Shown: positions 2,309 to 26,179 of the stretch, piece by piece | Position numbering within the stretch: the stretch's first letter is position 1 | How the letters are laid out: each line of letters starts with the position of its first letter | Assembly (NCBI RefSeq): GCF_027271155.1 | Contig: NZ_CP114542.1 | Span: forward strand, 2,899,001 to 2,963,000 | Length of the DNA stretch: 64,000 bases | Reading direction: 5' to 3' | DNA from: Brevundimonas subvibrioides | Lineage (GTDB): Bacteria; Pseudomonadota; Alphaproteobacteria; Caulobacterales; Caulobacteraceae | Position numbers and translations under genes: made by a program | The notes under the pieces: model-generated | Databases searched by the model: none | What the model saw: the letters and a program-made list of their open reading frames with translations, nothing else | What the model was told of the DNA's origin: nothing

Positions 2309-3214
2309 ATGACAATTCGGTTCGACGGCAAGGTGGCGATCGTCACGGGTGCAGGGGGCGGTCTGGGGCGTGAACACGCCCTGGCCCTGGCCGCCCGCGG
2401 GGCCAGGGTGGTCGTGAACGACCTGGGCGTGGCGCGCGACGGATCGGGATCGTCGCAAAGCCCTGCTGAAGCCGTGGTGGCCGAGATTGTGGCCAGGGGC
2501 GGAGAGGCCATGGCCAACGGAGCCTCCGTGACGGACTTCGAAGCGGTCAAGGCGATGGTGGCCGAGGCGACCGCCAGATGGGGGTCGGTCGACATCCTGG
2601 TGAACAACGCAGGGGTCCTGCGCGACAAGTCCTTCGCCAAGATGGAGATCGAGGATTTCCGCTTTGTCGTCGACGTGCACCTGATGGGGGCGGTCAACTG
2701 CACCAAGGCGGTCTGGGACGGCATGCGCGAGCGGAACCATGGCCGCATCGTGATGACCACATCGTCGTCCGGCCTCTATGGCAACTTCGGCCAGGCCAAC
2801 TATGGCGCGGCCAAGATGGCGCTGGTCGGCTTCATGCAGACCCTGGCCATCGAGGGGGCCAGGAACGACATCCGGGTCAACTGCCTGGCCCCCACCGCCC
2901 ATACGCGAATGACCGAAGACCTGGGCGCGGCACTGCCGCTGGAGGCGCTGGGGCCCGAACTGGTGTCGCCGGGCCTGCTTTATCTGGTCAGCCAGGACGC
3001 GCCGACGCGCTGCATCCTGGCGGCCGGGGCCGGGGGCTTCGAGCGGGCCTATGTGACCCTGACCCAGGGCGTGAGGATCGTCGGCGACGACGCGGCCGAT
3101 CAGGTCGCCGCCCGGTTCGAGGCGATCTCGGACCGGACCGGCGAGATCGTTCCGGAGATGGGGGCCGCCCAGGGCATGATCGAACTCACGAAGGCCCAAA
3201 AGGCCCACGCCTGA
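2309..3214 (+). CDS. Short-chain dehydrogenase/reductase, (R)-3-hydroxyacyl-CoA dehydrogenase type
   Basis: A 301-aa SDR enzyme. The cofactor motif TGAGGGLGREHA sits at about residues 14-25, the NNAGVL motif near 95, and the catalytic YxxxK as Y165-GAA-K169, with serines of TTSSSGLYG just before it. The long insert and the sequence AARGARVVVNDLG resemble the dehydrogenase part of peroxisomal-type multifunctional enzyme 2 (17beta-HSD4) and related bacterial 3-hydroxyacyl-CoA dehydrogenases. The ATG follows AAGGGAG. It is divergent from ompA. A thiolase lies 140 nt downstream on the same strand, so the pair probably serves beta-oxidation or a related acyl-CoA route. Substrate is inferred. Confidence 0.85.
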   Translation: MTIRFDGKVAIVTGAGGGLGREHALALAARGARVVVNDLGVARDGSGSSQSPAEAVVAEIVARGGEAMANGASVTDFEAVKAMVAEATARWGSVDILVNNAGVLRDKSFAKMEIEDFRFVVDVHLMGAVNCTKAVWDGMRERNHGRIVMTTSSSGLYGNFGQANYGAAKMALVGFMQTLAIEGARNDIRVNCLAPTAHTRMTEDLGAALPLEALGPELVSPGLLYLVSQDAPTRCILAAGAGGFERAYVTLTQGVRIVGDDAADQVAARFEAISDRTGEIVPEMGAAQGMIELTKAQKAHA

Positions 3215-15337: not shown

Positions 15338-15412
15338 GGATGCGTAGCTCAGCGGGAGAGCACCTCGTTGACATCGAGGGGGTCACAGGTTCAATCCCTG
15401 TCGCGTCCACCA
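15338..15412 (+). tRNA. tRNA-Val (anticodon GAC)
   Basis: A full cloverleaf of 75 nt including an encoded CCA. Acceptor GGATGCG pairs with CGCGTCC. D arm GCTC-GAGC, anticodon stem CCTCG/CGAGG with loop TTGACAT, and T arm ACAGG-TTCAATC-CCTGT are all present. The discriminator is A. Confidence 0.97.
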
Positions 15413-16357: not shown

Positions 16358-17812
16358 CTAGGCTGAACGCGAGCCCTGAATGCCCGGACAGGCGCGGTCC
16401 AGCGCGCTCGACCACCGGCGCACGGCGGCGACGAACACGGGGTTTCCGGACAGGCTGCCGAAGATGTCCGTCATGGCGAGAACGGGTCCGGGGTCGGGTG
16501 CCCGGGACCGCGCGCGTGCCCTGAGATCGTCTGCCAGGGGATGGCGCAGGACCAGCGCCCCATCGCCGATCGTCGCCAGCCGACGGATCCAGGCCGCCAC
16601 GGCGATCGCCAGCCGGTTGAAGGGTCGCCCCTGTTCCAGTCTGTCCCGGATGGGATCGAGCAGCAGATTGAGCGACGCATCGGTGTTGATCCGTTCGAGC
16701 GTGTCCTCCAGCGTCCGGTTGGAAAACCGCTTCACCAGCCTGTCCTGATAGGCCTGAAGATCGACCGGCAGGGCCGCCGGCAAGGTCGGTGCCGTTTCCC
16801 GGCGCATCAGGGCGCGGATGTAGCGCTCCAGTCGCGGATCGCGCATCGCCTCGGCGACCATTCGATGACCCGCCAGCCAGCCGACGGACGCCAGGGCCAG
16901 ATGGCTGGCGTTCAGCAGCCGCAGCTTCATCTGCTCGAACGGTTCGACGTCGGCCGTGAACTGGACCCCGACGGCCTCCCAGTCCGGACGGCCGTCGGCG
17001 AAATCATCCTCGATCACCCACTGGGTGAAGGGCTCGCAGAAGATGGGCCAGCGATCCGCGATGCCGTACGCCGCCTCGAAGGCCGCGACATCTGCGGGCC
17101 GCGTCACGGGCGTGATGCGATCGACCATGGTGCCGGGAAACCGGGCATGGGTGCCGATCCATTCGGCCAGCCCGGCGTCGATCCGCCCGGCCAGGGCCAG
17201 CACCGCATTCCGGAGCAATCGCCCGTTCCCGGGCAGGTTATCGCAACTCAATGCGGTGAAGGCAGGCCGGCCCGCGTCCCTGCGACGACGGCAGGCTTCG
17301 ACCAGGATCCCGATCGGGCTGGTCGGCGCGCGCGGCGTGGCCAGATCGGCGACGATGGCGGGATGGGAGAAGTCCAGCCGACGGGTTTCGGCGTCCAGGC
17401 AGTAGCCGGTCTCGCTGACCGTCAGGCTGACGATCCGGACGCCGGGAGCCTGGATTCGGTCCAGAACCCTGTCCACAGCTCCGGGCCCCAGGATGTCGGT
17501 GATGGAGCCGACGACCTGGGCCGATGCGCGATCGTCGTCGCGCTCGATCAGGGTGTAGAGGCCGTCCTGTGGCCCCAGCGCCTCGCACACGCGGGCGTCG
17601 CCGGGCATCAGGCCCACCCCCACGATACCCCAGTCCATCGCCTGTCCCCGGTTCATCAGGGCATGGACGTAGCGCGCCATATGGGCGCGATGGAACGCGC
17701 CGGGCCCGATGTGGACTATACCGGGCGTGATGGCCCGGGGGTCGTAGGTCAGGCCGGCGATGTCACGGGGCAGACGGTCCAGCGTCGCGCGTGACAGCCG
17801 GGGCGCGGTCAC
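16358..17812 (-). CDS. Mannitol dehydrogenase family protein (mannitol 2-dehydrogenase / fructuronate reductase type)
   Basis: A 484-aa NAD-dependent polyol/aldonate dehydrogenase. The N-terminal Rossmann part has IVHIGPGAFHRAHMARYVH. The middle has FTALSCDNLPGNG, MVDRITPVTRP and KLRLLNASHLALASVGWLAG, with the lysine motif of the family. The GTG start at 17812 is fixed by a 4-nt GTGA overlap with the MFS gene and by GGACGGAC upstream. It closes an operon AraC-FadR-MFS-dehydrogenase. In this family UxuB reduces D-fructuronate while MtlK oxidises mannitol; the GntR regulator and transporter favour a sugar-acid or polyol route, but the substrate cannot be fixed. Confidence 0.88.
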   Translation of the reverse strand: MTAPRLSRATLDRLPRDIAGLTYDPRAITPGIVHIGPGAFHRAHMARYVHALMNRGQAMDWGIVGVGLMPGDARVCEALGPQDGLYTLIERDDDRASAQVVGSITDILGPGAVDRVLDRIQAPGVRIVSLTVSETGYCLDAETRRLDFSHPAIVADLATPRAPTSPIGILVEACRRRRDAGRPAFTALSCDNLPGNGRLLRNAVLALAGRIDAGLAEWIGTHARFPGTMVDRITPVTRPADVAAFEAAYGIADRWPIFCEPFTQWVIEDDFADGRPDWEAVGVQFTADVEPFEQMKLRLLNASHLALASVGWLAGHRMVAEAMRDPRLERYIRALMRRETAPTLPAALPVDLQAYQDRLVKRFSNRTLEDTLERINTDASLNLLLDPIRDRLEQGRPFNRLAIAVAAWIRRLATIGDGALVLRHPLADDLRARARSRAPDPGPVLAMTDIFGSLSGNPVFVAAVRRWSSALDRACPGIQGSRSA

Positions 17813-19119
17813 GTCCGTCCGGGTGCGGCCCTCGCGGCAAGGGCGAAGGCGATGAGCGACAGGATGCTGGACGCCAGGCTGACCCCCGCGAGCGACGGCG
17901 CGAGCGCACCGGGCCCTCCGATCGCCTCGCTGATGACGGTCACCAGCGAGGGGGCCACGCCGAAGCCGATGAAGGACCCCACGACGACGAATGAGCCCAG
18001 ACACAGGGCACGGAACTGGTTGGGCACCAGAACGGCGATGGCGGTGCCGGTGATCAGGCCCGTCGCCGTGCCGGCCAGCAGCAGGATCGTCAGCATGATC
18101 GCAAAGCCGGGCACGGCCGGCATGATCGGAAACAGGGCGGCGGGCACACCGATGGCGGAGGCGACGACGGCGGTCATCAGCAGGCCCCCCCCGCCCGCGC
18201 GCTTCAGACCGGCATCGGCCGCAAAGCCACCCGCGAGGGTGCCGACCAGACCGGAGCCCAGCAGGACCAGACCCATCCAGGCACTGAAGTCAGCGGGCTG
18301 CAATCCATAGGTCCGCATCAGAACGGGCGTCGCCCAGATGCTGGCCGAGGCATCGGCCATGATGACCGTGATCTGGCCCACGAACAGCGGTACCAGCAGG
18401 CTGCGCCGCGCCCACAGGGCGCCCATCGATGCCCCGAACCCGGCACCGGCGCTGGCGACCTCCTGGCGGACCGGCTCGCGAAGCATCAGCAGCGGCAGGA
18501 CCAGGACCAGGCTGAAGCCCGCGAAGATCAGCTGGGTCGCGCGCCAGGCGGCCATGCCGAAAAGCGGATCGGGCCGGCTCGACAGAACCGTGAACAGCGC
18601 GCCGCCCAGGGCGAAGGCCAAAGCCAGGCCGACCACCTTGCCCATCGACAACAGCAGCAGCGACCGGCCGCGCGTTTCGGGCGGGGCGAGGTCGGCCGCA
18701 ATCGAGATCGCCACGGGCAGGACGACGGTCAGGCCCAGAGCGGACAGCATCCGGGCGGCGAACAGGAGTTCAAAGGAGGTGGCGAAGGCGGTCGCCGCGG
18801 CCCCGAGGCTCCAGAGGACCGCGAGCACTCGCATCATGCGCACACGGTTGCTGTGATCCGCCATCCAGCCGATCGGGATCGACAGCAGGGCGGCGGGCAC
18901 GGCCGTCGCCATACCCTGGGCCAGACCCAGCTGCAGGTCACTCATGCCCAGGTCGGTGCGGGCGAACTCCTGCACGGGACTGAACGCCGCCTGGATGGCG
19001 CAGCCGCTGGCGATGCTGAGCGCCAGGATCGTCAGGGTCAGGCCGACCGCGCGCGGCCGGGCGACCTCGCGCCCGGGTTGGGGGGCCGCCGGTATGACGG
19101 CGGCGGAAGGATCATGCAT
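17809..19119 (-). CDS. MFS transporter
   Basis: A 436-aa major facilitator with about 12 hydrophobic segments. The cytoplasmic loop signature after TM2 is GWMADHSNRVRMM, a G-x-x-x-D-x-x-x-R-x-x variant, and RGRSLLLLSMGKVVG follows TM4. The N-terminal tail before TM1 is hydrophilic. It overlaps the FadR gene by 8 nt upstream and the dehydrogenase gene by 4 nt downstream, so it probably imports the substrate of this operon across the inner membrane. SPVQEFARTDLGMSDLQLGL resembles hexuronate/aromatic acid type MFS proteins. Confidence 0.9.
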   Translation of the reverse strand: MHDPSAAVIPAAPQPGREVARPRAVGLTLTILALSIASGCAIQAAFSPVQEFARTDLGMSDLQLGLAQGMATAVPAALLSIPIGWMADHSNRVRMMRVLAVLWSLGAAATAFATSFELLFAARMLSALGLTVVLPVAISIAADLAPPETRGRSLLLLSMGKVVGLALAFALGGALFTVLSSRPDPLFGMAAWRATQLIFAGFSLVLVLPLLMLREPVRQEVASAGAGFGASMGALWARRSLLVPLFVGQITVIMADASASIWATPVLMRTYGLQPADFSAWMGLVLLGSGLVGTLAGGFAADAGLKRAGGGGLLMTAVVASAIGVPAALFPIMPAVPGFAIMLTILLLAGTATGLITGTAIAVLVPNQFRALCLGSFVVVGSFIGFGVAPSLVTVISEAIGGPGALAPSLAGVSLASSILSLIAFALAARAAPGRT

Positions 19120-19855
19120 GGACCGTCTCCGGGTGCGAGAGCCCTCGCAGGATGTCGCCGATCGAGGCGTCGAAATGGGCGTCCATGGCCTCGATGGCGG
19201 CCTCGACGTCGCGGTTCAGAATGGCGCGGGCCAGCGCCCGGTGACGCTCGAGAGTCGAGACCCGATCTTCCTCGGCGACCCGGGTCTTCCAGGCGGCGGG
19301 GACGGCCTCCTCCATCAGCGGCCCGAACGAGGCCACGATCTGGACGAACAGGGCGTTCCTGCCGGCGCGCGCGATGGCGGCGTGAAAGGCGATGTCGTGG
19401 GCGGCGACCCTGGTCATGTCGTCGTGGTCGCGATCCATGGCCTCGGCCAGATCGACGATGACCTGGGCTTCGGCATCGGTGCGGTTCTGGGCGGCGAGAG
19501 CGGCGGTGCGAAGCTCGATGGTCCGGCGAACGTCCCAAACCTCGGCGACCGAGATCTGGGCCGTGGAGACCGCGTGGTCGAGGGAGCTGGCGATCACGGC
19601 GCCGTCGATCGCACTGACACGCGGTTTTCGGCCATTGCCGACATCGATCAGACGCAGCGCCGCCAGCACGCCGAAGGCTTCGCGCATGACGGCCCGGCTG
19701 ACACCCAGCTTGACGGCGAAATGCCCCTCGCCCGGCAAGGAGTCGCCGACGCGGAGCCCCTCGGTCCGAATATGATTGCGAACGGTGTCGATGGCCCGCT
19801 GGACGAGAGAGCCGCCCTCGCCTCCGGTCGGGCCGCTCATGCTCACGGCACTCAT
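19112..19855 (-). CDS. GntR-family transcriptional regulator, FadR subfamily (FCD domain)
   Basis: A 247-aa repressor-type protein. The winged helix spans about residues 15-85 (RVGDSLPGEGHFAVKLGVSR, then AVMREAFGVLAALRLIDVGN, with the GntR P-S/G-E-x-x-x-A pattern). An FCD effector-binding domain follows (VRRTIELRTAALAAQ, HDIAFHAAIARAGRNALFVQ, HRALARAILNRDVEAAIEAM, HFDAS) carrying the histidines that usually bind a metal and a carboxylate ligand. It shares an operon with an AraC regulator, an MFS transporter and a dehydrogenase. It is the obvious candidate to bind the ACCTATC-N-GATAGGT palindromes upstream of both operons here. Confidence 0.93.
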   Translation of the reverse strand: MSAVSMSGPTGGEGGSLVQRAIDTVRNHIRTEGLRVGDSLPGEGHFAVKLGVSRAVMREAFGVLAALRLIDVGNGRKPRVSAIDGAVIASSLDHAVSTAQISVAEVWDVRRTIELRTAALAAQNRTDAEAQVIVDLAEAMDRDHDDMTRVAAHDIAFHAAIARAGRNALFVQIVASFGPLMEEAVPAAWKTRVAEEDRVSTLERHRALARAILNRDVEAAIEAMDAHFDASIGDILRGLSHPETVHA

Positions 19856-20661
19856 CAGGCGGCGATCCGGGCGGCGCGATAGTCCGACGGAGACTGGCCG
19901 AAACGACGCCCGAAGGCCCGCGCGAAGCTGGCGTTGTTCAGATAGCCGTTCTCATAACCGACCGAGGACACCGGCAGGTCGGTGGTGGCCAGCATCAGAC
20001 TGGCCTGGGTCAGGCGGCGCTCGGCCAGCGCCTCGGCGACGCTGCAGGCGAACATCTGGCGAAACCCTCGGGTCAGCTTTTCGCGGTTGAGACCGCATTG
20101 GGCGGCGATGCCATGCAGGGAAAGCTTCTCCCGCCATTGTTCGTCGATCAGTCGGCGTGCGGTCAGCAGACGCAGGCTGTCGGCGCGCGACATGTCGCTG
20201 TCGCCCGCGACCGGCACCATGACGCCCTTGTCCAGGGCGCTCCAGGTCTCGCACAGCAGCTCGATCGACTTGGCGGTACGATAGATGTCACCGGCCTCGC
20301 TGACGCGTTCACAGTCGCGCAGGGCCAGGGCGATGGCCCGCAGGTCGCTGGGCAGATGATAGGTCAGGCGGTCGTCGGCACCGGGCAGGGTGAGGGCGCT
20401 GATGCGCGCCAGCCCCGAGGCTGCGATCAACAGCAGGATGCGGGTGACGCCCGTGTCCTCGCCGACGAGGTCCTGCGCATGGGCGATCCCCGCGAGGGTC
20501 AGGGTCGCCGGCGTGTCGATGGTGCCGAAGCCGAAGACGGCGGCGACCGCCGCGTCGGGCATGGGGAAATCGGCGAACGGCCCTCGACCGATCAGGACGG
20601 TGAGTTCAGGCGAAACGACGAGGCAGCGACGGGCCACGGCCACGGGCGGCGACTGATCCAT
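19855..20661 (-). CDS. AraC-family transcriptional regulator
   Basis: A 268-aa regulator with a C-terminal double helix-turn-helix (LSLHGIAAQCGLNREKLTRG, then LTQASLMLATTDLPVSSVGY and the typical ending FARAFGRRFGQSPSDYR). The N-terminal 160 residues are of no recognised ligand-binding family. A strong GGGAGGAA precedes the ATG at 20661. Its stop overlaps the FadR gene start by 1 nt (TGATG). Two palindromic operators lie in its promoter, so the operon is probably under FadR-type autocontrol as well. Confidence 0.92.
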   Translation of the reverse strand: MDQSPPVAVARRCLVVSPELTVLIGRGPFADFPMPDAAVAAVFGFGTIDTPATLTLAGIAHAQDLVGEDTGVTRILLLIAASGLARISALTLPGADDRLTYHLPSDLRAIALALRDCERVSEAGDIYRTAKSIELLCETWSALDKGVMVPVAGDSDMSRADSLRLLTARRLIDEQWREKLSLHGIAAQCGLNREKLTRGFRQMFACSVAEALAERRLTQASLMLATTDLPVSSVGYENGYLNNASFARAFGRRFGQSPSDYRAARIAA

Positions 20662-20703: not shown

Positions 20704-20718
20704 ACCTATCTGACAGGT
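20704..20718. promoter_or_regulatory. Operator copy 1: ACCTATCTGACAGGT
   Basis: Palindrome of the form ACCTATC-N-GATAGGT with one arm mismatch, 43 nt upstream of the AraC start. Its centre is 23 bp from copy 2, about two helical turns, so two dimers could bind on one face. The size and symmetry fit a GntR/FadR operator. Confidence 0.72.
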
Positions 20719-20726
20719 TTCGCAAT

Positions 20727-20741
20727 AGCTATCTGATAGGT
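20727..20741. promoter_or_regulatory. Operator copy 2: AGCTATCTGATAGGT
   Basis: Second copy of the 15-bp palindrome, with six of seven arm positions symmetrical. It ends 4 nt before the stop codon of the FAD-linked oxidase gene and lies in the promoter of the AraC-FadR-MFS-dehydrogenase operon. Confidence 0.72.
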
Positions 20742-20744
20742 TGG

Positions 20745-22148
20745 CTACAGCGTGAAGATCTTGCCCGGGTTGAACAGGTTCTGGGGGTCCAGGGCCCGCT
20801 TCATCGTGCGCATGATGTCGACCGCATCGCCCAGCTCGGCGACCAGCCAGTCCTGCTTGCCCAGACCGATGCCGTGTTCCCCGGTGCAGGTGCCGTCCAT
20901 GTCGAGGGCGCGCTGGACCAGGCGACGGTTCAGGGCCTCGGCCTCGGCCGCCTCTTCGGGCTTGTCCGGATCGATGACGAAGACGACGTGGAAATTGCCG
21001 TCGCCGACGTGGCCCAGGATCGGACCGGGGATGGAGGCGGCCTCCAGATCCTTCTTGGTCTCGGTGATGCATTCCGCCAGGCGGCTGATCGGAACGCAGA
21101 CGTCGGTGGGCCAGCCGACGCAGCCCTTGCGCAGGCCGATCGCAGCGTAATAGGCCTCGTGCCGCGCCTTCCACAGCCTTGCGCGCTCTTCGGGCAGGCT
21201 GGACCACTGGAACGCTCCGCCGCCATTGTCCGACGCGAGGGCCGAGACGGTCGCCACCTGCTCCTCGACATAGCGCTCCGAGCCATGGAACTCGAAAAAG
21301 AGCGTCGTCTTCTCCGGATAGTCGAGGTTGGACCAGGCGTTGACGGCCCGCATCTGGACGTCGTCCAGAATCTCGACCCTCGCCAGCGGCACGCCGAGCT
21401 GAATGGCCTGGACGGTCGTATCGACCGCCCCGGCCAGGGTCTCGAAGCTGCAGACCGCCGACAGGATGGATTCCGGAATGCCGTGCAGCCGCAGGGTGAT
21501 CTCGGTGATGATGCCCAGCGTGCCTTCGGACCCCACGAACAGCCGCGTCAGGTCATAGCCGGCCGCCGACTTCCTGGCCCTGCGGGCCGTGCGTATGTCC
21601 CGTCCATCCGGCGTGACGACCCGCAGCGACAGCACCGCCTCCCGCATGGTGCCGTAGCGCACGGCATTGGTGCCCGACGCCCGCGTCGAGGCCATGCCGC
21701 CGATGGTGGCATTGGCCCCCGGATCGATGGGGAAGAACAGGCCGACGTCGCGCAGGTGTTCGTTCAACTGCTCGCGCCGACACCCCGCCTGGACCGTGAC
21801 GTCGAAGTCCTCGGCATTGACCTGGACGATCTGGTCCATCAGCGACAGGTCGATGGTCAGGCCGCCGTTGACCGGGGTCGTATTGCCCTCGATCGAGGTG
21901 CCGGCGCCATAGGCGATGATCGGCACGCCCGCGGCCCCGCACAGCTTGACCGCCGCCACCACCTCCTCGGTCGAGAGGGCGAAGACGACCGCGTCTGGCA
22001 GCACGGTGTGGAAATGCGCCTCGCTGGCCCCGTGCTGGGCCCGCATCGCCTCGCCGAGGTGAAGCCGGTCACCGAACACTCCCCGAAGGCTTGCGATGAA
22101 GCCGTCGGGGAGGCGGGTCGACTCCAGCGAGAGAGGCAAGGCGTTCAC
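20745..22148 (-). CDS. FAD-linked 2-hydroxyacid oxidase (D-lactate dehydrogenase cytochrome / GlcD type)
   Basis: A 467-aa FAD-binding PCMH-type oxidoreductase. The FAD site is IIAYGAGTSIEGNTTP with PGANATIGGMASTRASGTNA and VRYGTMREAVLSLRVVTPDG. The C-terminal FAD-oxidase_C domain shows GHVGDGNFHVVFV and CTGEHGIGLGKQDWL, with the metal-binding histidines of the D-lactate/2-hydroxyglutarate group. It passes electrons to a quinone or cytochrome. The GTG at 22148 is the most likely start (GGA upstream), 22 nt after the TonB receptor stop, so the two form one operon. The substrate is a 2-hydroxy acid by family; which one is unknown. Confidence 0.9.
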   Translation of the reverse strand: MNALPLSLESTRLPDGFIASLRGVFGDRLHLGEAMRAQHGASEAHFHTVLPDAVVFALSTEEVVAAVKLCGAAGVPIIAYGAGTSIEGNTTPVNGGLTIDLSLMDQIVQVNAEDFDVTVQAGCRREQLNEHLRDVGLFFPIDPGANATIGGMASTRASGTNAVRYGTMREAVLSLRVVTPDGRDIRTARRARKSAAGYDLTRLFVGSEGTLGIITEITLRLHGIPESILSAVCSFETLAGAVDTTVQAIQLGVPLARVEILDDVQMRAVNAWSNLDYPEKTTLFFEFHGSERYVEEQVATVSALASDNGGGAFQWSSLPEERARLWKARHEAYYAAIGLRKGCVGWPTDVCVPISRLAECITETKKDLEAASIPGPILGHVGDGNFHVVFVIDPDKPEEAAEAEALNRRLVQRALDMDGTCTGEHGIGLGKQDWLVAELGDAVDIMRTMKRALDPQNLFNPGKIFTL

Positions 22149-22170
22149 TGTCGTTCCAACCCGGGCTGAC

Positions 22171-24273
22171 CTAGAAACTGTACCCCACGCGGACCCCCAC
22201 GCGCCGACCGTCACCGACCTGCCCCAGGCTGCCCAGCGCCGGCAGGCCGGCGGCGGTCAGTGTCGAGGAATCGATGTAGGACTCATAGTAGTCCTCGTCG
22301 AACAGGTTGTTGGAGAAGACGGCGAACTCCATGCCGTTGACGCGATAGGAGATCGTCGCATTGGCGAGGAAATAGCTGTCCAGTTCAGGGGCGAAGGTGC
22401 TCGACAGGCCTGCGCCGATCCGGTCGCCCTTGCCGACGATGCCGCCCGAGAAGGTCAGCTCTCCCTGACCCAGCGGGACGACGTAGTCGCTCTGCAGGCT
22501 CAGGGTCCAGTCCGGCTGGAACGGGATGCGGTCGGTGGGCAGCAGGCGGCCGGTCGTCTGACGGTACCGTGTGTCGTCGGTGATCCGGGCATTCTGCAGC
22601 AGGCCACTGGCCCGGATCGTCCAGGCGTCGGTCAGGTCGGCCGTGATCTCGGCCTCGACGCCATACGATCGCGCGTCGCCGGTGTTCAGATTGATCCCGA
22701 CGATCCCGGCCCCGGTGGTCGAGGGCGCCAGGCTGTTGGCGGCGATGATGTCCTTGTAGTCGTTGTAGAAGACCGCACCCTGCAGGGAGATCCGCCGGTC
22801 CTCGGTGCTGAGCTTGGTGCCGACCTCGTAGGTCCAGACCGAGTCCCCGTCATAGGTCAGGTTCGGCGCGCCCGGACCGTTCGTGCCGCCGCCCCGGAAG
22901 CCACGCGCGATCGAGGCGTAGATCATGTGGTTGTCGTCGAGACGCTTGCGCAGCGCGATCCGGGGCTGGACCTCCTCGGCCTCGTAGCGGGAGTTGCGCG
23001 CACTCTGGAAATCGATCGTCTGGCGATCGTAGCGAAGACCGACGGTCAGCTCGAGGTCCGGCTGGATGTTCCAGAACGCCGTGCCGAAGACGGCCCAGAT
23101 GTCCGCGTCGGAGTTGGCGAAGGCCGGGACCGTCAGACCCGCCGGTACCACCAGGGTCGCCGAGGTCTGGTCCTGGGTCTGGTTCGACCTGAACACGCCG
23201 ATCACCGAGGTGAGGTCGTCGCTCCAGCGGCTGTCGATGCGCGCCTCGACGCTCCTTGTTTCCAGCGTATTCTCGGCGGTCGAACGGAACAGGTTGATCG
23301 ACTGGAAGTCGCCGTCGCTGTCGCTGTCGGCGTCGCGCTTGTCGTAGGAAGCGATGACGGTCAGATCGTGCTGCGCGTTCAGCGGCAACTGGAGACGGCC
23401 GTTGATGCCGTTGTATTCGTAGTTGGCGATGCTGCGGAAATTGGTCCTCGCATCGTCGATGTAGACGGTCGGTCCCGTGGTGACGGCATAGAGCGGGTTG
23501 GTGCCGTTCACCTCGTCATGATAGGCGTTCAGGTTGATGACCGCGGGCCCGGCCTGCCAGCGCAGCGCGCCGCGGATGGTGTTCTGCTCGAGCCGGTTGG
23601 CGTCGTCGAAACCCAGCAGGCTGTTCTCGATAAAGCCGTCGCGCCGCTGCGTGCCGACCGACAGACGACCGGCCAGGACGCCCGGAATGATCGGACCTGC
23701 GACGGTCCCGCCGACGATGTAGTAGCTGTCCGGTCCGGCATAGGTCGCTGTCAGCTTGCCCTCGGGCACGTCCGACGGCTGCCGGGTCGTGACGTTGATG
23801 GCCCCGCCCAGCGTATTCTGCCCGAACAGGGTCGACTGCGGCCCCCGCAGCACCTCGATCTGTTCGACCGCCAGGGTCGGGCTGTTCAGATAGGAGGTGT
23901 TCTGTTGATAGACGCCGTCCACGAAGATGCCGACGCCGGGCTGAACCGTGTCCAGCAGGGTCGTGCCGATGCCCCGGATCGAGATGAAGGCGCGTCCGGC
24001 GGCGTCGGAGTTGATGTTCAGGCCCGGCGTGACGGCCGCGATGTCGCGGATCGAGGTGAACTGCCGGCTCTCCAGCGTCTCGGCGGTGACGGCGGTGACC
24101 GCCACCGGGACGTCGATCAGACGCTCGGACCGCTTGCGGGCCGTGACGATGATGTCGTCGACCGCGGCCGCCTGTTCGGTCGTTGCCGGCTGGCCCTGCG
24201 TCTGAGCCGAGGCGACGCCCGTGGATATGGCAGCCAGACCGACGCCGGCCGCAAGGATCGTCATGAAGCGCAT
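22171..24273 (-). CDS. TonB-dependent receptor
   Basis: A 700-aa outer membrane receptor. The signal peptide ends AISTGVASA near residue 23. A TonB-box-like DDIIVTARKRSE is followed by the plug (VAVTAVTAETLESRQFTSIR, GIGTTLLDTVQPGVGIFVDG, VEQIEVLRGPQSTLFGQNTL, GGAINVTTRQPS) and a 22-strand barrel ending RVGVRVGYSF with the terminal aromatic residue. GGCGGAA precedes the start at 24273. It probably brings the regulon substrate through the outer membrane: the same palindrome as at the AraC promoter lies 66 nt upstream, and the FAD oxidase follows in the operon. Confidence 0.95.
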   Translation of the reverse strand: MRFMTILAAGVGLAAISTGVASAQTQGQPATTEQAAAVDDIIVTARKRSERLIDVPVAVTAVTAETLESRQFTSIRDIAAVTPGLNINSDAAGRAFISIRGIGTTLLDTVQPGVGIFVDGVYQQNTSYLNSPTLAVEQIEVLRGPQSTLFGQNTLGGAINVTTRQPSDVPEGKLTATYAGPDSYYIVGGTVAGPIIPGVLAGRLSVGTQRRDGFIENSLLGFDDANRLEQNTIRGALRWQAGPAVINLNAYHDEVNGTNPLYAVTTGPTVYIDDARTNFRSIANYEYNGINGRLQLPLNAQHDLTVIASYDKRDADSDSDGDFQSINLFRSTAENTLETRSVEARIDSRWSDDLTSVIGVFRSNQTQDQTSATLVVPAGLTVPAFANSDADIWAVFGTAFWNIQPDLELTVGLRYDRQTIDFQSARNSRYEAEEVQPRIALRKRLDDNHMIYASIARGFRGGGTNGPGAPNLTYDGDSVWTYEVGTKLSTEDRRISLQGAVFYNDYKDIIAANSLAPSTTGAGIVGINLNTGDARSYGVEAEITADLTDAWTIRASGLLQNARITDDTRYRQTTGRLLPTDRIPFQPDWTLSLQSDYVVPLGQGELTFSGGIVGKGDRIGAGLSSTFAPELDSYFLANATISYRVNGMEFAVFSNNLFDEDYYESYIDSSTLTAAGLPALGSLGQVGDGRRVGVRVGYSF

Positions 24274-24338
24274 TGTGTGTTCCGCCCTGATAGCGCCGGA
24301 TCTGCTCCGGTCGTTGGGACGACGGTGCACGGAATGCG

Positions 24339-24353
24339 ACCTATCTGAAAGGT
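24339..24353. promoter_or_regulatory. Operator copy 3: ACCTATCTGAAAGGT
   Basis: Third copy of the ACCTATC-N-GATAGGT palindrome (one arm mismatch), 66-80 nt upstream of the TonB receptor start. Together with copies 1 and 2 it links the receptor/oxidase operon to the regulator/transporter operon. Confidence 0.7.
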
Positions 24354-24413
24354 CGCTGATTGTGCCGATCCGCAGTCAGACTTGGCACGACGTCCGTCAG
24401 GCCCGTCGCCGGA

Positions 24414-25919
24414 TCACTCGCGCCACGTCGCCGCGATCGGAAAGTCCGTGTCCGGCCCGGCCCGGCCTTCGGCCAGACGGTAGACCTGTCGCGTGTCCGC
24501 GTCGTACGCGGGCCAAGGGGCCGAGCCGTCACGGGCGAAGTCGATCCAGATCCCGTGGATGCGATCGGCCAGGGCCTGCAGCGGCACTGTCGGGCCCAGG
24601 ATCCCCTTCGGCCCGGCCGCCGTGGCCAGGGTGTTGAACACGAACGGAATGTCCACCGCGTGACAGGCCCCCAGTTCGCCGCCCATCGCCGGCGAGCGCC
24701 AGTCCATCTCGTAGAAATGCGTGCGCCCCTGATGGGCCTGGGCATAGGCCCGGGCCGGCCAACGGAATACCAGATCGGTCAGGGCCCGGGTCAGGGTCGC
24801 GCCGCCCGTTTCCCCTCGCTGGCCCAGGCCGTAGCGCCGCAGGATGCCGAGCGCGCCCCGCTCGGTCCGGCTCATCAGGAACCACGCCAGGAACCGGCCA
24901 AGTTTCGCCTTCACCCCGGTCGGGACGAAATACAGGTTCATCTCTTCGGCGTTCGTGCCGATCAGCAGATCGACCTCGGCCCCGGCCCCCTTCGCCAGGG
25001 CCTTCAGGGGCGGCACGGGGATCACGTCGTCCCCATGCACGGGCAGGAATTTGCTCAGTCCATAGGCGGGGTCCCGACCATTCTCGCCGCGCATGTCCAG
25101 ACCCGATGTCGGGGCCTGGACCACATCCTGGGCGTCGAGCCCCGCCTGAAGGCTGGCCGAGCGAAAGCCTGCCGCATCGGCACGCACATCCAGAACCTTC
25201 GCGATCCGGTCGACGACCCGGCGCATCGTCCTGACCGACCGGACCATCGATCCGTGACCGCTCTGCAGGATGGCGCGCCGGAACAGGCCTTTCGCCAGGG
25301 GCGAGACGACAAGGTCCGCGATCGACATGGCCCCGGCGGATTCGCCGAAAACCGTGACGTTGTCGGGGTTGCCGCCAAAGCCGGCGATATTGCCGCGCAC
25401 CCACTCCAGCGCCGCGATCATGTCGCGCAGGCCCAGATTGGTGGGGACGCCCGGAATGGGCAGGAAGCCCTCGATCCCGAGCCGATAGTTGATGGTGACG
25501 CAGACCACGCCATTGCGGGCAAAGCTGGTTCCGTCCTGGGCCGGCGCGGACCCCGCTCCGCCGACCCAGGCTCCGCCGTGGATGAACACCATGACCGGCA
25601 GGCCCGCCGCGTCACGGACGCCCGGCGTCCAGATGTTCAGATTCAGGCATTCGTCGCCCTGGACCCAGCCCGACCCGACCAGGGGCACAAGGTCGAGCGT
25701 GGGGAAGTCTCGCAACTGATAGGGCGCGGTAGGACCGAAGGCCGTCGCGTCCCATTCCCCCGACCAGGGCGCATGGGGTTGGGGCAGCTCGAAACGGCGC
25801 GGTCCGACGGGCGCAGCGGCGTAGGGCACACCGAGAAACCGGTCCACCCCGTCGATGGTCACGCCGCGGACGCGTCCGCTGAGGGTGTTTGCGATGATGG
25901 GCGCGCTGGCGTTCGACAT
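24414..25919 (-). CDS. Type-B carboxylesterase
   Basis: A 501-aa alpha/beta hydrolase. The start is typical (NTLSGRVRGVTIDGVDRFLG, VPYAAAPVGPRRF). The oxyanion hole is VFIHGGAWVGGAGS and the nucleophile lies in VFGESAGAMSI near residue 192. The late CHAVDIPFVFNTL carries the usual catalytic histidine region. No signal peptide is seen. It is read toward the TonB receptor with a 140-nt gap, and may release the carbon source (an ester) used by the neighbouring transport and oxidation genes; that link is inferred from position only. Confidence 0.9.
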   Translation of the reverse strand: MSNASAPIIANTLSGRVRGVTIDGVDRFLGVPYAAAPVGPRRFELPQPHAPWSGEWDATAFGPTAPYQLRDFPTLDLVPLVGSGWVQGDECLNLNIWTPGVRDAAGLPVMVFIHGGAWVGGAGSAPAQDGTSFARNGVVCVTINYRLGIEGFLPIPGVPTNLGLRDMIAALEWVRGNIAGFGGNPDNVTVFGESAGAMSIADLVVSPLAKGLFRRAILQSGHGSMVRSVRTMRRVVDRIAKVLDVRADAAGFRSASLQAGLDAQDVVQAPTSGLDMRGENGRDPAYGLSKFLPVHGDDVIPVPPLKALAKGAGAEVDLLIGTNAEEMNLYFVPTGVKAKLGRFLAWFLMSRTERGALGILRRYGLGQRGETGGATLTRALTDLVFRWPARAYAQAHQGRTHFYEMDWRSPAMGGELGACHAVDIPFVFNTLATAAGPKGILGPTVPLQALADRIHGIWIDFARDGSAPWPAYDADTRQVYRLAEGRAGPDTDFPIAATWRE

Positions 25920-26102
25920 CCGGACACTGTGGCCCGGACGCCCGCCATCCGGAACCACCGAGGCTTTGCAGAGGTGCAGATTTCCTTGACCGTCGCGCCG
26001 AGGCGCCGGCCCCATTGCGATCCCACACCGGAAACGCTCCGACCGACTGGTCGTCCGGAGGCAGAACTGTGTGCCCGGATGAAACCTGTGAGGGGGAAGA
26101 AG

Positions 26103-26179
26103 TGGCGCGCCCGGAACGATTCGAACGTCCGACCCTCAGATTCGTAGTCTGATGCTCTATCCAGCTGAGCTACGGGCGC
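26103..26179 (-). tRNA. tRNA-Arg (anticodon ACG)
   Basis: A 77-nt cloverleaf with encoded CCA. Acceptor GCGCCCG pairs with CGGGCGC, discriminator G. The D arm contains AGCTCAGCTGGATAGAGC, the anticodon loop is CTACGAA, and the T arm has GTTCGAATC. The ACG anticodon is normally edited to ICG by TadA. Confidence 0.97.

Follow-up and report, generated by a model that had tools for sequence, protein, structure and literature searches.

A 15-bp palindrome, ACCTATC-N-GATAGGT, was analyzed in a 64,000-nucleotide stretch of the Brevundimonas subvibrioides genome (contig NZ_CP114542.1, positions 2,899,001 to 2,963,000; hereafter the window), where it stands in front of two operons of a gene cluster encoding a TonB-dependent receptor, an FAD-linked dehydrogenase, AraC- and GntR-type regulators, an MFS transporter, and a mannitol-dehydrogenase-family enzyme, together with a carboxylesterase. 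The regulon defined by this palindrome is real, conserved, and compact, and it is common to many alphaproteobacteria, namely Brevundimonas-like bacteria, sphingomonads, and at least one further alphaproteobacterial family. The FCD-type GntR protein is very probably the reader of the palindrome, judging from sequence comparisons, and its assignment as the regulator is strongly supported. It is fairly probable that GntR represses the cluster via the palindrome, and that the cluster serves the uptake and cleavage of an ester and the oxidation of the D-2-hydroxy acid thereby released, with the hydroxy acid as inducer.

Conservation and confinement of the palindrome

Matches to the palindrome were scored by the number of mismatches. 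The initial annotation had placed three one-mismatch copies in two promoters only, two of them 23 bp apart (center to center); both the positions and the spacing were right, and no further copy with up to three mismatches was present in the window. The core TATC-N-GATA is exact in the second copy and one base off in the others. Shuffled windows contained on average 0.62 matches at ≤3 mismatches, and 2 of 100 shuffles reached three; by itself, the number of copies in the window is of moderate significance only. The presumed rarity of the motif was borne out by the whole genome (one contig, 2,973,988 bases), in which the three cluster sites are the only ones with ≤1 mismatch, leaving no extra regulon members at this threshold. 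Two additional sites with two mismatches both lie within long reading frames. At ≤3 mismatches, the palindrome occurred in 45 places versus 34 for the reversed control, and such loose matches were therefore regarded as background.

Conservation was analyzed in 42 loci carrying the cluster or its GntR-AraC part, with a 300-bp region inspected ahead of each gene; matches starting beyond residue 70 or with <36% identity (AraC of L020 and L087) were dropped. As the initial annotation had also implied, the site was found upstream of the orthologues: at ≤2 mismatches, it preceded the TonB gene in 21 of 23 loci and the AraC gene in 32 of 36, and at ≤3 mismatches, the AraC gene in all 36. One of the two TonB exceptions (L020) has a site with three mismatches. 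In all three loci where the FAD enzyme comes first, the site stands upstream of its gene. By comparison, 209 other orderings of the half-site letters reached at most 0/23 (TonB) and 2/36 (AraC). Because it is conserved in the relatives, the motif is more than a chance occurrence. Perfect palindromes are present in Novosphingobium sp. PP1Y and in the genomes G206, G477, and G605.

To determine confinement, sites with ≤1 mismatch were located in 25 whole genomes, all selected for the presence of a GntR relative. Of the 51 sites, 47 fall in the cluster (3/3 in the own genome, 24/25 in 11 relatives, and 20/23 in 13 further genomes), whereas four lie outside it: one in G448 (inside a long frame), one in G831, and two in G605. 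No such site occurred in G029 or in G507, the latter having a GntR relative of 32% identity. The perfect palindrome of G605 (L134, 9881-9895) is far from cluster genes and about 30 bases ahead of a reading frame; it may be real, since the GntR gene is present there without the cluster.

The GntR protein as probable reader of the operator

The sites go with GntR rather than with AraC, and GntR is proposed as the reader because clusters without AraC keep the sites, because a GntR paralogue has sites with the same core, and because the DhdR operator, described below, is alike. In L108, L110, and L111, the gene order is esterase, two sites, FAD enzyme, and GntR; in L109, it is esterase, two sites, TonB, FAD enzyme, hydrolase, and GntR. 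None of the four loci has an AraC match at E ≤1e-4, and all keep GntR and the paired sites. L108, L110, and L111 are counted as one lineage because their surroundings are shared, and the four loci thus amount to at least two lineages.

A paralogous GntR protein (49-50% identity) is encoded in G791 and G670, in each case with three sites within 2 kb and with no AraC match at the locus. These sites combine the core TATC-N-GATA with different outer letters (ACATATCTGATATGT is one example). GntR and the paralogue have the same predicted recognition segment, SRAVMREAF, but differ in the wing. The paralogue-associated sites (L113: 8356, 10191, and 10314; L114: 7090, 7212, and 9033) may represent a sister regulon.

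The FadR-type GntR protein reported in the initial annotation was recognized by its domains: both the N-terminal winged helix (PF00392, 36.1 bits; cut-off 27) and the C-terminal FCD domain (PF07729, 77.9 bits; cut-off 24.3) were detected, placing it in the FadR/FCD subfamily of the GntR family. Its predicted model (mean predicted local distance difference test score, 75) matches GntR structures, with a best Foldseek E-value of 7e-9. An alignment of 22 proteins, selected out of 120 listed, showed no variation at D154, H158, H205, and H227, which we take to form the Asp-His-His-His metal site of the FCD domain; two of the four residues are absent from the paralogue in L113 and L114. Against the curated NCBIfam models, GntR scored 85 bits for GlcC (cut-off 301), 82 for NanR (260), and 77 for LldR (311), all below the cut-offs.

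Promoter architecture

The spacing of the AraC-side pairs was searched within 20-25 bp, giving 34 distinct loci (L085 and L120 being one locus). The pairs are 21-24 bp apart, with 23 bp in 24 of the 34, and the spacer of the window pair contains a possible -35 element (Table 1). The pairs ahead of the TonB or FAD enzyme gene are 16-20 bp apart in 16 of 17 cases. By analogy with DhdR and LutR, GntR likely acts by repression.

Organization of the cluster

All cluster genes lie on the minus strand. The paired sites are followed by the genes for AraC, GntR, the MFS transporter, and the mannitol-dehydrogenase-family enzyme, overlapping end to end, and the single site is followed by the TonB receptor gene and then the FAD enzyme gene; this order and the gene families, as first annotated, were confirmed by the reading frames and Pfam. 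The carboxylesterase gene is positioned upstream of the TonB gene. It had been described as adjacent to the system, and it proved to be a conserved cluster member; a site ahead of it was seen in two loci only, L020 and L118. In L118, an extra site (3190-3204) precedes a small Lrp/AsnC-type gene followed by the esterase gene, which would place the esterase in the regulon there. The cluster and its neighbors are bounded by a tRNA-Val and a tRNA-Arg gene (window positions 15338-15412 and 26103-26179), the latter directly upstream of the esterase gene, and the GC content is even across the region. Together with the patchy spread of the cluster, the flanking tRNA genes hint at a genomic island.

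Table 1. Operators and genes of the cluster (positions in the window)
Feature	Position	Strand	Remarks
Operator proximal to AraC, ACCTATCTGACAGGT	20704..20718		1 mismatch; conserved; AraC start codon 43 bp away
Possible -35 element between the two operators, TTGCGA	20720..20725	-	TTG in the spacer in 31/34 distinct loci
Operator distal to AraC, AGCTATCTGATAGGT	20727..20741		1 mismatch; conserved; directly past the FAD enzyme stop codon
Operator ahead of the TonB receptor gene, ACCTATCTGAAAGGT	24339..24353		1 mismatch; conserved; ATG 65 bp away
Mannitol-dehydrogenase-family polyol/uronate dehydrogenase	16358..17812	-	PF01232 + PF08125; GTG start (17812) overlaps the MFS stop
MFS transporter	17809..19119	-	PF07690
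GntR/FCD regulator, proposed operator reader	19112..19855	-	PF00392 + PF07729
AraC-type regulator	19855..20661	-	PF12833; four site-keeping clusters without detectable AraC
FAD-linked D-2-hydroxyacid dehydrogenase, LDHD-like	20745..22148	-	PF01565 + PF02913; GTG start; mouse LDHD, 505 bits
TonB-dependent receptor	22171..24273	-	PF00593 + PF07715
Type-B carboxylesterase, conserved cluster member	24414..25922	-	PF00135; start codon uncertain; solved carboxylesterase 7w1j, 367 bits

Enzymes and probable substrate

Among solved structures, the FAD enzyme scored highest against mouse LDHD (505 bits, with identity at 237 of 457 aligned positions), compared with 140 bits for the solved D-2-hydroxyglutarate dehydrogenase. 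In the LDHD study (PMC10589216), the subsite A residues are described as binding Mn2+ and the glycolate part of the substrate, and the enzyme as taking D-lactate and larger hydrophobic D-2-hydroxyacids while rejecting hydrophilic ones. The subsite A residues Arg347, His398, His405, Glu442, and His443 of mouse LDHD correspond to R330, H381, H388, E425, and H426 here, and 24 of 24 cluster enzymes retain all five. Hydrophobic residues make up most of the side pocket, one position of which is occupied by Ala, Pro, Thr, or Ser. The initial annotation had suggested an esterified sugar acid or hydroxy acid as substrate; since the LDHD residues are kept and the side pocket is mostly hydrophobic, a D-2-hydroxy acid is favored and a sugar acid disfavored.

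For the dehydrogenase annotated as acting on mannitol or fructuronate, the mannitol side gained from the closest solved structure, mannitol 2-dehydrogenase 1lj8, whereas fructuronate reductase was the best NCBIfam model at a score below its cut-off (361 versus 603 bits); the D-arabinitol 4-dehydrogenase model also scored below its cut-off (291 versus 600 bits). The clusters of relatives carry a polyol-type short-chain dehydrogenase/reductase (SDR) and/or a fructokinase-like ROK kinase between the esterase and TonB genes, the ROK gene taking this place in L019, L021, and L022; in L116, L117, and L083, a kinase and a mannitol-type dehydrogenase gene are convergent beside GntR. Of 26 well-covered loci, 18 encode an SDR, a kinase, a mannitol-type dehydrogenase, or more than one of these. 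The esterase is found in 25 of these 26, being absent in L038, which has a tannase/feruloyl-esterase family protein, and an HSL-type hydrolase joins several clusters. The carboxylesterase of Novosphingobium sp. ES2-1 (L032, 7384-8869) is annotated as two overlapping pieces and was counted as present. A scan for other families near the cluster revealed none that names the substrate. The common denominator of the clusters, as predicted from their proteins, would be ester cleavage and D-2-hydroxyacid oxidation, and the probable substrate is a D-2-hydroxy acid ester, which in many hosts may be one formed with a polyol.

Distribution among relatives

The relatives search covered 61 genomes and gave GntR matches at E ≤1e-30 in three of these, the own genome included; all three belong to its 37 genomes of the same genus. 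With a Novosphingobium GntR query, 2 of 385 genomes matched in a search of the class, and within the family of that Novosphingobium genome, a match at E ≤1e-25 was present in 31 of 397 genomes. Of 29 additional genomes of this family in which a GntR match came with a locus, 27 contain the site (24 at ≤3 mismatches in the short locus and 3 at ≤1 mismatch in a longer stretch), G605 and G819 being the two without a nearby site. A scan of named genomes yielded nine loci, including Brevundimonas sp. UBA2388, a Caulobacteraceae bacterium, six Sphingobium or Novosphingobium, and, as the ninth, an alphaproteobacterium with a GntR match alone (31% identity). G206, from a different small family, also has the cluster.

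The recurrent core is the carboxylesterase, the LDHD-like D-2-hydroxyacid dehydrogenase, and GntR, and the variable parts are the uptake proteins, polyol dehydrogenases, fructokinase-like kinase, and other ester hydrolases. The cluster is plasmid-borne in Porphyrobacter sp. YT40, Novosphingobium sp. ES2-1, and PP1Y, and its patchy spread suggests horizontal transfer. On plasmid pYT40 (L031, 16560-17324), an IS6100 transposase gene occupies the expected GntR position, and the sites are retained at both promoters.

Proposed mechanism and alternatives

Without inducer, GntR dimers would occupy the paired sites before AraC-GntR-MFS-dehydrogenase and the site before TonB-FAD dehydrogenase, blocking transcription; GntR would also repress itself, since its own gene lies behind the paired sites. 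The ester would enter via the TonB receptor and probably the MFS carrier, and the carboxylesterase would split it to release a D-2-hydroxy acid, whose side chain is probably hydrophobic (D-lactate or a larger homologue) and which the LDHD-like flavoenzyme would convert into the 2-oxo acid. The inducer may be the hydroxy acid or a close metabolite bound in the FCD domain, by analogy with D-2-hydroxyglutarate and DhdR. In this host and many relatives, the other half of the ester is plausibly a polyol, which a mannitol-type or SDR dehydrogenase would oxidize to a ketose for phosphorylation by a fructokinase-like kinase.

Several observations weigh against this scheme. No site is located near the TonB gene of L038; the GntR orthologue of G605 has no adjoining cluster, and a perfect site occurs elsewhere in that genome; and G819, with a partial GntR match, has no site within 18 kb. 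A clear -10 element (TAnnnT, 16-18 bp past TTG) was seen in just 7 of the 34 distinct loci, so that repression by promoter overlap is no more than a possibility and a general -10 element behind TTG is unsupported. The ROK kinase gene is missing from the window cluster (24273-24414), the sole genomic match to the relatives' kinase lying elsewhere (G000:C1:2262485-2263345, 50% identical), and 8 of the 26 well-covered loci have none of SDR, kinase, and mannitol-type gene, so the polyol half would be optional. The five LDHD residues recur in L034, a 58% relative not located in such a cluster, and therefore mark the enzyme family, not the pathway.

Activation of both promoters by the AraC-type protein as reader of the palindrome, with GntR acting elsewhere, would suit the position of the AraC gene directly after the paired sites and its occurrence in most loci examined; it is nevertheless very improbable, as the sites persist in the AraC-less clusters L108-L111, the GntR paralogue stands among same-core sites without AraC, and the operators of DhdR and LutR share the one-base-spaced design. 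A chance palindrome or common repeat element, for which the count in the window alone would be only moderately unusual, has a negligible probability and was ruled out by the genome-wide rarity, the confinement, and the conservation upstream of orthologues.

With regard to the substrate, a sugar-acid pathway would combine fructuronate-type chemistry, a UxuR-like regulator, and a flavoenzyme acting on an aldonate. The best NCBIfam model of the dehydrogenase agrees with it, but its best solved relative does not; moreover, GntR scored only 38 bits for UxuR and 51 for ExuR, lower than for GlcC, NanR, LldR, and PdhR, the side pocket of the flavoenzyme is mostly hydrophobic, and no uronate isomerase or mannonate dehydratase was recognized among the conserved members, with no search aimed at these families. 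This pathway is accordingly improbable. It also seems rather unlikely that the regulon serves D-lactate or another free D-2-hydroxy acid, with the esterase and polyol genes as neighbors of separate role. The flavoenzyme and GntR are indeed the parts nearest to known lactate-type systems, and sites ahead of the esterase are few; however, the esterase accompanies the flavoenzyme in nearly all well-covered loci, reduced ones included, additional ester hydrolases occur in several loci, and gene overlap places the window dehydrogenase in the GntR transcription unit.

An extension of the ester scheme, offered tentatively and more doubtful than not, is that the cluster, apparently spread by horizontal transfer, is dedicated to the import and breakdown of polyol esters of hydrophobic D-2-hydroxy acids and is controlled by a D-2-hydroxyacid-sensing GntR branch with a common TATC-N-GATA core and differing outer letters. 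No dedicated bacterial pathway for such esters was found in the literature searched, subscription journals, preprints, and RegPrecise being outside its scope, and no description of this cluster content was found there. The system, initially annotated as compact and probably undescribed, is compact and conserved; "undescribed" holds for that literature, and an earlier in-silico description cannot be excluded.

In summary, the operator of an alphaproteobacterial catabolic regulon is sharply defined, and a likely cognate repressor and a minimal core of genes can be assigned to it. The substrate may be sought among the esters or D-2-hydroxy acids that release the repressor, which could itself serve as a new D-2-hydroxyacid sensor, and the operators of the orthologues, the paralogue, and DhdR, with one core and differing edges, offer a natural series in which GntR specificity can be studied.

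Comparison with known systems

Fumonisin-esterase clusters of sphingomonads contain a TonB receptor and a permease alongside the esterase, and the type-B esterase of the window matches fumonisin B1 esterase with 177 bits; however, it has a better solved relative (7w1j), and the window cluster has other regulators and a D-2-hydroxyacid flavoenzyme. Mammalian LDHD resembles the window flavoenzyme in all subsite A residues but differs in the side pocket, where, for example, Trp351 of LDHD is replaced by Tyr. GlcC and LldR belong to the GntR-FCD family, and their models are among the top scorers for the window GntR, although its scores are far under the curated cut-offs.

LutR, also of the GntR-FCD family, has an operator of the same one-base-spaced design (TCATC-N1-GATGA), but it responds to L-lactate and controls iron-sulfur proteins and a permease (PMC11734750). 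The study of DhdR, a GntR repressor of Achromobacter denitrificans, reports a footprinted operator, GTTATCAGATAAC, which is an inverted repeat, and repression of its own operon with D-2-hydroxyglutarate dehydrogenase, released by D-2-hydroxyglutarate (PMC8651671). This operator has the same TATC-N-GATA core as the window palindrome, and the repressor controls itself together with a D-2-hydroxyacid dehydrogenase, as is proposed here. DhdR was also found among the structural matches of the window GntR model, at 24-25% identity and 43 bits in sequence. In contrast, the outer operator letters differ, and the DhdR operon has two genes, whereas the present system comprises two operons with outer and inner membrane uptake, an esterase, and polyol-type enzymes. 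As the window flavoenzyme is nearer to LDHD than to D-2-hydroxyglutarate dehydrogenase, D-2-hydroxyglutarate is not claimed as effector or substrate here. By analogy, the DhdR operator is the most telling pointer to GntR as the reader of the palindrome, and the system probably works like those of DhdR and LutR, under a member of the GntR-FCD family.

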